Positions 60,382 to 64,000 of a DNA stretch of 64,000 nucleotides are shown piece after piece. Source of the DNA: Pseudomonadota bacterium (GTDB lineage Bacteria; Pseudomonadota; Alphaproteobacteria; Paracaedibacterales; CAITNM01); contig JAGOSL010000005.1 of NCBI GenBank assembly GCA_018062345.1, positions 34,192 through 98,191 on the forward strand, given 5' to 3'. Within the stretch, counting starts at the first letter, position 1, and the number at the start of each line of letters is the position of its first letter. Below the pieces are notes generated by a model. It searched no databases and was not told where the DNA came from. It was given only the letters and a program-made list of their open reading frames with translations. A program made the translations under genes and the position numbers.

Positions 60382-62955
60382 ATGTCTATTCAATCGCTGC
60401 AATCAATTCGTTCTACTTTTCTTGAGTATTTTAAGGCTAATGGCCATGAAATTGTGCCATCCAGCCCACTTGTGCCGCAGAATGACCCAACATTGATGTT
60501 TACCGCAGCCGGTATGGTGCAATTTAAAGATGTGTTTACAGGTAAAGAAACCAGAGATTACAAAACCGCCGCGTCTTCTCAGAAATGTTTGCGTGCGGGT
60601 GGCAAGCATAATGATCTTGATAACGTAGGCTACACTGCCCGTCATCATACATTTTTTGAAATGTTGGGAAATTTTTCCTTTGGAGATTATTTTAAAGAAC
60701 GCGCTATTGTATTGGCTTGGGAGCTGGTTACTAAACATTTTAATGTTGATCCTAAGCGATTACTTGTAACTGTATATGCTGATGATAATGAGGCTGCAAG
60801 CATTTGGAAAAAGCTTACAGGTTTTTCTGATGATAAAATTATTCGCATAGCTACCTCTGATAATTTTTGGAGTATGGGCGATACAGGGCCATGCGGCCCT
60901 TGCACTGAAATATTTTATGACTATGGAGATTCTATCCCTGGTGGTCCTCCAGGTTCTGCTAATGAAGATGGTGACCGTTTTATTGAAATCTGGAATTTGG
61001 TTTTCATGCAGTACGAACAACTTGGTGATGGCACGCGTGTAAATTTGCCAAAACCTTCTGTCGATACGGGTATGGGGCTTGAGCGGATTGCTGCGCTTTT
61101 GCAAGGTGCCCACAATAACTATGATATTGATTTGTTTAAAAGCTTAATTGATGCTTCAAAAAGTGAAACTGGAAATACAGGAATGCGTCAATCGCACAAC
61201 GTTATTGCCGATCATTTACGTGCATGTAGCTTTTTAATTGCTGATGGTGTGCTGCCTTCGAATGAAGGCCGTGGCTATGTATTGCGCCGTATTATGCGTC
61301 GTGCTATGCGCCATGCGCATATGTTAGGTGCAAAAGACCCGTTGATGCATCGCTTGGTGCCTGTATTGATTAGTTTGATGGCTGATACTTATCCGCAGCT
61401 ACTGCGTGCGCAATCATTAATCACTCAAACCTTATTTCATGAAGAGGAAAAATTCCGCCAAACATTGGGCCGTGGTCTGAAGCTTTTGAAAGAAGAAGCT
61501 GGCCATCTGAAAAGTGGGCAAGCTCTTTCTGGTGATGTTGCGTTTCGATTGTATGATACTTATGGATTTCCGCTAGATCTTACTCAAGATGTTTTGCGTG
61601 CAGAAAATCAAAGTGTTGATACTGATGGTTTTAACCAAGCCATGGAAAAACAAAAGCAATTAGCACGGGCTTCATGGGTAGGGTCAGGCGAAGCTGGCTT
61701 TGAAAAAATTTGGTTTGACCTTAAAGAAGAAAAAGGAGCCACTGAATTTCTTGGCTATAGCTCATTAACTTCAGAAGCCAAGATATTAGCCATAGTTAAA
61801 GATGGAAAATTGCTTGATGAGGCCGTGCAAGATGCTTGGATTTTATGCAATCAAACGCCCTTTTATGCAGAATCTGGTGGGCAAGTTGGAGATATTGGAA
61901 CAATCGAGACTGATTATGGCACAGTTAATGTGGTTGATTGCCAAAAGATGGTGGGCTGTCTTCATGTTCATAAAATTGGTGCACTTACTAAACCTATAAA
62001 AATTGGCGAGAATGTGCGCCTTAATGTGAATGCGCAAGCTCGTGCAAAAACAGCAGCAAATCATTCAGCAACTCATTTATTACACGCAGCGCTCCATAAA
62101 GTTTTAGGCAATCATGTTACTCAAAAAGGCTCATTAGTGGGGCCTAATCGTTTGCGTTTTGATTTTACGCATTCTATAGCTGTGACGTCTGAACAATTAC
62201 GTGAAATTGAAATGTTAGTGAATCAACAAATTCTTGAAAATCACGAAGCTTCTACAAAATTGATGACGCCTGATGATGCAATAGCAGAAGGGGCTACGGC
62301 ATTATTTGGTGAGAAATATGGTGACGTTGTGCGCGTGCTTCGCCTTGGAGATTCCTCGGTTGAGCTTTGTGGGGGGACCCATGTGCAGCGTACTGGTGAT
62401 ATTGGGCTTATAAAAATACTTAATGAATCAAGTGTTTCAGCGGGCGTTCGTCGTATTGAAGCTATTACAGGCACAAGCATTATTGATAAGCTTTATGAGC
62501 TTCAGGCAATGCTTAATTCAGAGCAAGAGAGCTCTCGAAAAACCATACAAGATTTACAAAAACAGCTTACCGAAGCTAAGCGCAATGCGGCACTAGGTGG
62601 AAAAAGTGCTGATAATATTGAATTACTAGCAGGCCACCAAGCGATCTTTAAGCACCTGGCAGATATTCCAGCAAAAGATTTAAAGGGTATTGTTGACGAC
62701 CTGAAAAAAAAATTAACTTCAGGAATTGTTGTGGTAACCAGTACTTATGACGAGAAAGTGTCATTGGTAATAGGCGTTACAGCAGACCTTACTTCAAAAA
62801 TTAGTGCGGTGGATTTGGTTAAAATTGCGGCCCAAGTTGTTGGTGGGCAAGGAGGAGGGGGGCGCCCTGACATGGCTCAAGCAGGTGGAACGAACCCAAA
62901 TGCTGTAAATCAACTTCAAGTAGCAATCGAGAAGTTTTTATCTGATTTAAAATAA
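60382..62955 (+). CDS. alaS: Alanyl-tRNA synthetase
   Basis: Class II synthetase, 857 residues. Catalytic core motifs in the first 240 residues (FTAAGMVQFKDVFTG, RHHTFFEMLGNFSFGDYF, MGDTGPCGPCTEI), the editing-domain zinc site HSATHLLHAALHK plus CGGTH, and the C-Ala tail with GGQGGGGRPDMAQAGG. It is slightly short for AlaS but all domains are present. The leader from tRNA-Gln is 140 bases with the poly-C tract; no T-box is seen. Confidence 0.97.
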   Translation: MSIQSLQSIRSTFLEYFKANGHEIVPSSPLVPQNDPTLMFTAAGMVQFKDVFTGKETRDYKTAASSQKCLRAGGKHNDLDNVGYTARHHTFFEMLGNFSFGDYFKERAIVLAWELVTKHFNVDPKRLLVTVYADDNEAASIWKKLTGFSDDKIIRIATSDNFWSMGDTGPCGPCTEIFYDYGDSIPGGPPGSANEDGDRFIEIWNLVFMQYEQLGDGTRVNLPKPSVDTGMGLERIAALLQGAHNNYDIDLFKSLIDASKSETGNTGMRQSHNVIADHLRACSFLIADGVLPSNEGRGYVLRRIMRRAMRHAHMLGAKDPLMHRLVPVLISLMADTYPQLLRAQSLITQTLFHEEEKFRQTLGRGLKLLKEEAGHLKSGQALSGDVAFRLYDTYGFPLDLTQDVLRAENQSVDTDGFNQAMEKQKQLARASWVGSGEAGFEKIWFDLKEEKGATEFLGYSSLTSEAKILAIVKDGKLLDEAVQDAWILCNQTPFYAESGGQVGDIGTIETDYGTVNVVDCQKMVGCLHVHKIGALTKPIKIGENVRLNVNAQARAKTAANHSATHLLHAALHKVLGNHVTQKGSLVGPNRLRFDFTHSIAVTSEQLREIEMLVNQQILENHEASTKLMTPDDAIAEGATALFGEKYGDVVRVLRLGDSSVELCGGTHVQRTGDIGLIKILNESSVSAGVRRIEAITGTSIIDKLYELQAMLNSEQESSRKTIQDLQKQLTEAKRNAALGGKSADNIELLAGHQAIFKHLADIPAKDLKGIVDDLKKKLTSGIVVVTSTYDEKVSLVIGVTADLTSKISAVDLVKIAAQVVGGQGGGGRPDMAQAGGTNPNAVNQLQVAIEKFLSDLK

Positions 62956-63011
62956 TGAAAGTTATATTGTTGCTATTTTTTAAATAAAATATGTATTTAT
63001 TAATACTTTGT

Positions 63012-63044
63012 TAACCAATTTTACTTAGAATCTTAAATTGGTTA
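63012..63044 (+). terminator. Inverted repeat downstream of alaS
   Basis: TAACCAATTT (63012-63021) and AAATTGGTTA (63035-63044) form a perfect 10-bp stem with a 13-base loop, 56 bases after alaS and 34 before the next gene. No T-run follows directly, so it may be a weak terminator or a binding site. Confidence 0.4.
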
Positions 63045-63078
63045 GGGATTTTAGTATTTTCCGAAAGGAGAATTGAGT

Positions 63079-63270
63079 ATGCGTATACCGTTTAGAATGA
63101 TTATTTTGTCATTGGTTCTGTTTCTTTCTGAAGCTTGCGTTAATTTGGACGCTGCAAATAATCGCAATCAGTATTTAGAAAATGATGACAGTGAGGATAA
63201 TGAAATATCACAAGATCTTGCATTACACACGATTTCGTCTAAATGGCTTGAAAATCCGGAAAATACCTAA
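63079..63270 (+). CDS. Small exported protein, unknown function
   Basis: A 63-residue protein with signal peptide MRIPFRMIILSLVLFLSEAC and a short acidic mature part (LENDDSEDNEISQDL). AAAGGAG lies 9 bases before ATG 63079, a good ribosome-binding site that favours this start over TTG 63073. The Cys at the end of the hydrophobic stretch could be a poor lipobox (SEAC). It is too short to place in a family, but the signal peptide and strong RBS suggest a real gene. Confidence 0.6.
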   Translation: MRIPFRMIILSLVLFLSEACVNLDAANNRNQYLENDDSEDNEISQDLALHTISSKWLENPENT

Positions 63271-63435
63271 GGTAAAATTGTTCTTAAGTATAGACTAATA
63301 GGTAGCCAACGACGGCTGCTTATGCATGTTTAATAGCCATTTACAGCTAATTCATCTTAAAATGATTATGCTTTTTTTATTTCCTGGTTTCCGATCTTCG
63401 CAAAGACAGGTTTGTATGCGCGTATTGTCATCACA

Positions 63436-63461
63436 AAATCACCCAGATCCTGTGGTGATTT
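63436..63461. terminator. Hairpin between the small exported gene and the structured RNA
   Basis: AAATCACC (63436-63443) pairs with GGTGATTT (63454-63461), with an inner CAG/CTG extension and one bulged T, loop ATC. Short T-runs follow on either strand, so it may end transcripts from both sides. Confidence 0.45.
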
Positions 63462-63531
63462 AGTTTTATAAAATCATGAAACTATCCACTACACTGCCAC
63501 AGCCCTTACGGGGCTTGGCAAAGACGCAGTA

Positions 63532-63578
63532 TCCTTTTTTCCTTTTCTTTCGTTCTTCTTTTTTCTTTCTTTTTCTTC
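63532..63578. repeat. 47-base polypyrimidine/polypurine tract
   Basis: 46 of 47 bases are pyrimidine on the plus strand (one G at 63552); on the minus strand it is an A/G-only tract directly 3' of the structured RNA's terminal stem. It is bordered on the other side by a GC-rich hairpin (63496-63519; AGCCC/GGGCT plus GCCA/TGGC). Confidence 0.8.
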
Positions 63579-63990
63579 ACACTCGCTTTAGTAGTACCGT
63601 ATCTAACCTCTAGCCCGTTACGACCGGACCTGCGTCCATTACCACTGGACACTACGTCGGTTTGCTAAACCTGACGTGCCCTCGTTACTACCAAGGGAAC
63701 GTGTTAGAAGCTTTCCTTTTACAGAATCTTCAACCGCTAGCTCGTTACTACCAAGCCGGACTACTCACTTGTTTGTCAGGGATTATGCCACTGACCAAGT
63801 CGTGTCTACCTACTGTTAGGGGATTTATTGGATGGTTGCCAGCCATTCCCCTACTGGGTCGCTGAGTTTCCAGTTCAACAAACTTCGGATCCGCAACATC
63901 TAACGGCATTGTAGACTTTGTCAGTTGCTTCCCTTACCTTGTCTCTCTGCCCTCGCAAAGTATCAAATACGGTACCACTAAAGCGAATGT
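63579..63990 (-). ncRNA. Probable structured RNA closed by a 28-bp stem, with four GUNGUAA-loop hairpins
   Basis: No convincing gene covers 63271-64000 after the small exported gene. The ends 63579-63606 and 63963-63990 pair over 28 positions; the four non-Watson-Crick positions are all G-U pairs if the minus strand is transcribed, but C-A mismatches on the plus strand. Inside, four hairpins (63610-63630, 63634-63650, 63679-63697, 63734-63759) have 5-6-bp stems and a 7-nt loop GUNGUAA (N = C, G, A, A). More helices: 63654-63677, 63767-63800, 63819-63851. The stretch is visibly richer in G and C than its surroundings. I see no motifs of RNase P, tmRNA, SRP or group I/II catalytic cores. Identity unknown. 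Confidence 0.62.
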
Positions 63991-64000
63991 GGTTTTTTAT

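Follow-up and report, generated by a model that had tools for sequence, protein, structure and literature searches.

Sponge RNAs of the CsrB/RsmZ type carry one loop motif on varied stems within a few hundred nucleotides, and the element described here resembles them in this respect; however, its loops read GUNGUAA and not GGA, a long stem clamps the whole, and the element is present in multiple, near-identical copies within its genome and has no match in Rfam. Bacterial repeats of the MITE and REP types are likewise scattered as near-identical noncoding copies that bear an inverted repeat, but the present element has a covarying multi-hairpin interior and occupies a site shared across species. 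It departs further from MITEs in that, in the form which we call type 1, a leader and a tail extend outside the terminal stem P1, so that the inverted repeats are not outermost. The operator of E. coli thrS, as treated in one part of PMC9976931, has 7-base loops that resemble the anticodon loop of tRNA-Thr; here, in contrast, four or five arms stand in tandem, in several dispersed copies, and no such hairpin was found in ~500 nt upstream of thrS. As a large structured bacterial RNA the element is also comparable to GOLLD, ROOL and OLE (an excerpt of PMC12286853), from which it differs by the absence of an Rfam match and by its occurrence in one genus among the genomes searched. Within a limited collection, literature searches found no paper on GUNGUAA and none on noncoding RNA in connection with Holosporales.

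The window, by which we mean the whole stretch of 64,000 nucleotides that was analysed, belongs to a genome of the Candidatus Finniella group (G000), whose kinship label places it in the same genus as the relatives discussed below (the other G codes). To judge from this group, the host bacterium is likely a symbiont of protists.

Results and Discussion

Fold and strand of the core RNA

The features of the locus, in window coordinates and with the evidence for each in brackets, are the following.

63579..63990, minus strand: structured RNA core of type 1, 412 nt, closed by stem P1 (fold; homologues in two other species)
63962..63990, minus strand: 5' strand of P1, 29 pairs in the MFE structure (fold; pair counts over 6 distinct rows)
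63579..63607, minus strand: 3' strand of P1 (fold; pair counts; exact pattern matches)
63739..63757, minus strand: hairpin A, loop GUAGUAA (loop scan; pair count)
63679..63697, minus strand: hairpin B, loop GUAGUAA (loop scan; pair count)
63656..63675, minus strand: hairpin C, loop UUAGCAA, CUAGCAA in G006 (read by eye)
63632..63652, minus strand: hairpin D, loop GUGGUAA (loop scan; pair count)
63612..63630, minus strand: hairpin E, loop GUCGUAA (loop scan; pair count)
63487..63578, minus strand: tail, a purine-rich stretch followed by a palindrome of the GCCCCGTAAGGGC type (comparison of G000 copies)
63991..64000, minus strand: last 10 bases of the ~240-nt leader (remainder past the contig end, read from other copies)

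The initial annotation had taken this region for a structured RNA of the minus strand with four hairpins sharing a GUNGUAA loop, and the fold bears it out. The minus strand from 63990 to 63579 has an MFE of −161.9 kcal/mol (z −7.12), equalled by none of 100 dinucleotide shuffles, and the changes found in hairpins and end stem keep the pairs; the complement of the same stretch, that is the plus strand, folds to −122.1 only. The four loops, GUAGUAA, GUAGUAA, GUGGUAA and GUCGUAA, lie at the positions claimed. Across the 64-kb window GTNGTAA occurs at 32 sites (17 on the plus and 15 on the minus strand), and a stem of at least 4 bp is found at four of these, all of which are hairpins of the core. 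When other classes of 7-nt loop were scanned in the window, allowing one free position and demanding a stem of at least 5 bp, none recurred more than twice within 250 nt. The array also contains a hairpin with the loop UUAGCAA. As for the end stem, the long clamp that had been proposed was recovered with its numbers amended: P1 of the window copy comprises 29 pairs in the MFE structure instead of 28, and five of them, instead of four, are G-U on the minus strand.

The families of Rfam 15 include group II introns, CsrB, GOLLD and ROOL. Searching window positions 62000–64000 against Rfam gave 0 matches at E values up to 1, a set of 7 loci again gave 0, and 6 further loci yielded a single sub-threshold match, located outside the core and scoring 23.1 bits against a cut-off of 70. 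For want of a significant match, a group II intron or another known RNA was rejected; a tRNA or tmRNA identity was also rejected, as ARAGORN found neither in 7 of the 7 element loci given to it. Between the RNA element and a gene that we take, by eye, to be alaS, a short ORF with a signal-peptide-like start and no Pfam match was observed at window positions 63073–63270.

Compensatory changes and coding potential

Changes in the homologues from other species preserve the pairs rather than break them, as had been expected of a structured RNA. Over 16 distinct GUNGUAA hairpins from three species, excluding from the pair count one G005 hairpin with a mismatched stem, 96.9% of 96 cells are paired, where shuffles give 71.1%, and double-sided changes affect 30 cells, where shuffles give 11.7; the excess of pairing vanishes when the partner is slid. 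Two further measures are no better than in shuffles, namely the number of pairs that show a double change (6, shuffles 5.3) and that of further pair types (10, shuffles 11.4). Because the hairpins were gathered by their loop, the invariance of the loop in this set is by construction, and the informative point is that the stems differ yet are still predicted to pair. The free loop base N is never U in the 16 hairpins; 7 have A, 6 have C and 3 have G. The loop is kept across the three species while the stems and the number of arms vary (GUNGUAA hairpins per core being four in G000, five in G006 and five in G005), and one loop on changing stems in changing number is what a multivalent binding RNA would need.

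For P1, 98.3% of 120 cells over 6 distinct rows are paired and 6 of the 20 pairs show double changes, a value as high being reached in 0 of 500 shuffles. The imperfections of this stem amount to 11 G-U cells, against one A-C and one U-C, where 5 of the 11 G-U cells form a single column and may be shared by descent.

A protein-coding reading was considered and rejected. The minus strand holds an open stretch of 61 aa, whose alignment with G006 shows 58% over 38 aa; the substitutions between G000 and G006 are, however, evenly distributed over the codon positions of this stretch (15/60, 18/59 and 15/59), from which we conclude that the stretch is not coding. In agreement with this, the protein database search brought near-identical proteins alone, two for the 61-aa stretch and one for a 67-aa ORF of the plus strand.

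Copies, relatives and concerted evolution

The locus is not a single gene: the window copy belongs to a multi-copy family that appears to evolve in concert, and the repeat extends past the window. Comparison of the copies defines a repeat unit of ~740 bp, in which a ~240-nt leader precedes the core and a purine-rich tail with a palindrome at its end follows it; in the window copy this unit is truncated by the end of the contig, which is also the right edge of the window. The core matches nine places in G000, two at full length and seven at contig ends. Six core 3' ends could be read in this genome, one of which (contig C6) departs from the repeat just past P1; the tail is common to five of the six, and two of these five are alike for ~20 nt further. 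Eight leader 5' ends were read, one of them (contig C20) followed by a different RNA and three reaching a contig end within the leader, and one more leader fragment is fused to a tail, with the core absent. Given the six core 3' ends and the comparison of copies, G000 carries at least six copies of the repeat. A plasmid search with the element at blastn sensitivity gave no match, and scans of viral contigs with three exact motif patterns gave 0 matches.

Among the relatives, G006 was found both by blastn with the core (2 of 58 genomes, own included) and by the covariance model R1 (2 of 42 genomes of the order, own included, under the stricter filters used for the order-wide searches with R1 and R2). 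G005 was found via its leader and P1, the middle of its core not being found, and was missed by R1 despite having a type 1 core; this core is shown in 3 of the 11 genomes of the genus. The exact pattern of the P1 3' strand occurs in 17 stretches of the genome contig collection, 16 of them in G003, G005, G006 and G009, and all 16 coincide by coordinates with RNA elements found in these four related MAGs. The 17th is a lone match in a Bdellovibrionales MAG, with the partner strand absent from its 8 kb. Among the searched genomes, the element so far appears in one genus only.

The copies are alike within a species and divergent between species. Over 105 nt (78 nt for two G005 copies), core 3' ends agree at 97.1–100% within G000, 95.2–99.0% within G006 and 98.7–100% within G005, as compared with 75.2–78.1% between G000 and G006, 49.1–53.2% between G000 and G005, and 51.9–58.2% between G005 and G006. 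For the leaders (114 nt) the values within species are 96.5–100% in G000, 80.7–100% in G006, a range that includes one coreless copy, and 71.9–95.6% in G005.

The flanks of the element are collinear over many ORFs on each side in G000, G005 and G006, and in G009 the two flank genes, presumably ABC-F-like and CpoB-like as named by eye, are neighbours with no element between them, which we read as the element-free version of the site. Since the flanks are collinear and the flank genes adjacent in G009, the two sides are considered one shared site, pieced together in the sense that no single contig spans both. Each flank gene is present in 10 of the 11 genomes of the genus; the pair is adjacent in G009 only, ~31 kb apart in G004, and on different contigs in five other genomes. 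Core pairs from this same site in different species agree at 76.2, 51.3 and 55.7%, no closer than cores from different sites. The corresponding leader pairs agree at 58.8, 51.8 and 67.5%, and those involving G005 lie near the tops of their ranges (51.8 of 43.0–52.6; 67.5 of 50.0–69.3), so that the leaders seem less fully homogenised. As cores are alike within species and divergent between them, even at one shared site, the core copies are, by this comparison, evolving in concert. The simplest cause would be gene conversion keeping the copies alike, with re-insertion as the alternative cause. A second shared site, beside a gene that we take by eye to be flagellar P-ring-like, holds a type 3 element in G000 and a decayed leader without core in G006.

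One clamp stem, three interiors

The genomes G009 and G003 carry P1 around another interior (type 2), at two sites each (loci L124, L125, L126 and L144), and the model R2 of this interior found 4 places in 2 of the 42 genomes; R2 had no match in type 1 genomes, and R1 had none in G003 or G009. In type 3, found on G000 contig C20, a third interior comes after the usual leader, and its ends form a P1 that contains three G-U pairs; this RNA lies at 565–961 of locus L033 (minus strand), is followed by an 82-aa ORF and has no Rfam match. Against mononucleotide shuffles (60 for each type), types 2 and 3 have z values of −7.4 and −9.0. Type 1 and type 3 cores fold more stably than their complements, in line with an RNA of the minus strand, whereas the two strands of type 2 fold about equally (−100.8 and −99.3). 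Comparing type 2 with type 3 by blastn gave P1 and short matches alone. GUNGUAA hairpins are absent from both of these interiors, type 3 being judged by eye, and these loops cannot therefore serve the whole clamp family.

The leader and its motif

The motif ATGGGCTAWWWTAWTTTTTG is present in 9 of 9 aligned rows, which were picked for carrying it and include three RNA leaders, in three species. It also stands ahead of the gene for a small protein in both G000 and G006, ahead of a phage-like cluster and of neighbouring ORFs that look secreted, and ahead of a 268-aa ORF in G009; because of the latter, the motif is not confined to RNA, phage-like and small-protein genes. In the window, which holds the last 10 leader bases only, no match to the G000 form of the motif was found at up to 4 substitutions. 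After the motif, the phage-like genes have TTGACA and then TATCAT or TATTAT, and the RNA leaders have TTGCCA and then CATGAGATC (TGTGAGACG in G005), with no consensus −10. A sigma-70 scan of the unit found 2 sites, against 2.0 expected, and none in the leader, a scan of the unit for promoters and terminators gave no excess over chance, and the leader alone folds no better than chance (z −0.90). From the shared motif we infer that the leader may act as a promoter, and that the RNA would be made and co-regulated with the phage-like and small-protein genes.

The phage-like cluster (G000 contig C25; loci L089 and L226) encodes portal, prohead protease, capsid, connector and cell-wall hydrolase proteins. 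Secreted-looking ORFs lie between the genes of the C25 cluster, where two near-identical promoter-like motifs were also seen. The small proteins have 85 and 93 aa (L227, ~1107–1450; L228, ~1377–1750) and match the ORF that follows the type 3 RNA at 34% and, weakly, an ORF that precedes a type 2 RNA at 21%. A search with their alignment returned 7 proteins, none with a Pfam domain, and searches of Pfam and PHROGs with the small proteins gave no usable match. Palindromes around GAGCTC and GTCGAC were observed in a leader (L042, minus strand); judged by eye, the symmetry of the one centred on GTCGAC is kept through changes in three species.

Weighing the explanations

We give an even chance to the reading that these loci are a new family of structured noncoding RNA genes, with loops that give one partner several places to dock. 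Leftward transcription of one gene copy would yield a noncoding RNA whose ~410-nt core is held shut by the long end stem, and its four hairpins with RGUNGUAAY loops (five in two related species) would offer repeated docking sites to one RNA-binding partner, probably a protein, the RNA serving as a multivalent scaffold or sponge. The first candidates for this partner would be readers of the tRNA-Thr anticodon loop, since position 32 and the free position 34 are the only places where the loop departs from that of tRNA-Thr, together with the small protein whose gene has the same motif ahead of it. As the copies are nearly identical within a species and change in a compensatory way between species, selection seems to act on the RNA itself. 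That several near-identical copies have sharp outer ends, that P1 is preserved around three different interiors and that truncated and coreless copies occur would also suit a non-autonomous mobile element, in which P1 serves as inverted repeats for a transposase and the fold of the RNA is of secondary importance; indeed, compensation within P1 would be expected of mobile inverted repeats as well. We nevertheless regard this as unlikely: the type 1 repeat runs on past P1 by ~240 nt on one side and ~90 nt on the other, covariation is seen in the hairpin array, the imperfections of P1 are mostly G-U on one strand, the exact matches to P1 in the four related MAGs (16 of 16) fall in RNA elements, and one site is common to three species.

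Mimicry of the tRNA-Thr anticodon arm by the hairpins, which would then bind ThrRS, as the E. coli thrS operator does, or an A37-modifying enzyme or an anticodon nuclease, appears decidedly unlikely, even though GUNGUAA offers a 7-base loop with U33, N34, G35, U36, A37 and A38 and equals the loop of the tRNA-Thr in the window (UUUGUAA) save for position 32 and the free position 34. According to the portion of PMC9976931 that deals with the subject, bacterial threonine identity includes G34, G35 and U36, and the operator of E. coli thrS imitates the arm of tRNA-Thr that bears the anticodon; a yeast case of ThrRS with mRNA is reported in a passage of PMC9956033. However, position 32 is here a G, position 34 is A, C or G (7/6/3) and never U (n=16), as compared with G34 in the identity table, the stems have 5–7 bp, ARAGORN sees no tRNA in any of the seven loci, and ~500 nt upstream of G000 thrS hold no NUNGUAA hairpin, which also argues against ThrRS autoregulation through a thrS leader. 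The size and fold of the core, and the presence of the leader motif upstream of the portal, prohead-protease and capsid cluster, would be in keeping with an ornate RNA forming an assembly, of RNA alone or of RNA with protein, alongside a phage-like particle, with a role like that of GOLLD or ROOL. We hold this to be very unlikely, as there is no Rfam match, scans for three exact motifs hit 0 viral contigs, and the GUNGUAA loops are hardly self-complementary. The assembly through loop-loop contacts suggested by the initial annotation accordingly finds little support, the loops pairing mutually by at most two contiguous pairs with one exception, GUGGUAA with GUCGUAA, where there are five contiguous pairs, mostly wobble as judged by hand. 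A broader proposal is a long shot: a modular class of ornate RNAs in protist symbionts, consisting of a clamp with exchangeable interiors, one of them an array of tRNA-Thr-arm mimics, co-expressed with a phage-like particle and a possible small-protein partner.

Conclusions

Under the preferred reading, that of RNA genes with repeated docking sites, the repeated loop would be a single bait for finding the partner, and the presence of one clamp on three interiors would provide a natural test of the purpose of the clamp stem. The element would add to the biology of protist symbionts a large structured RNA family that has no relative in Rfam and whose copies are held nearly identical within each genome, in the manner of rRNA genes.
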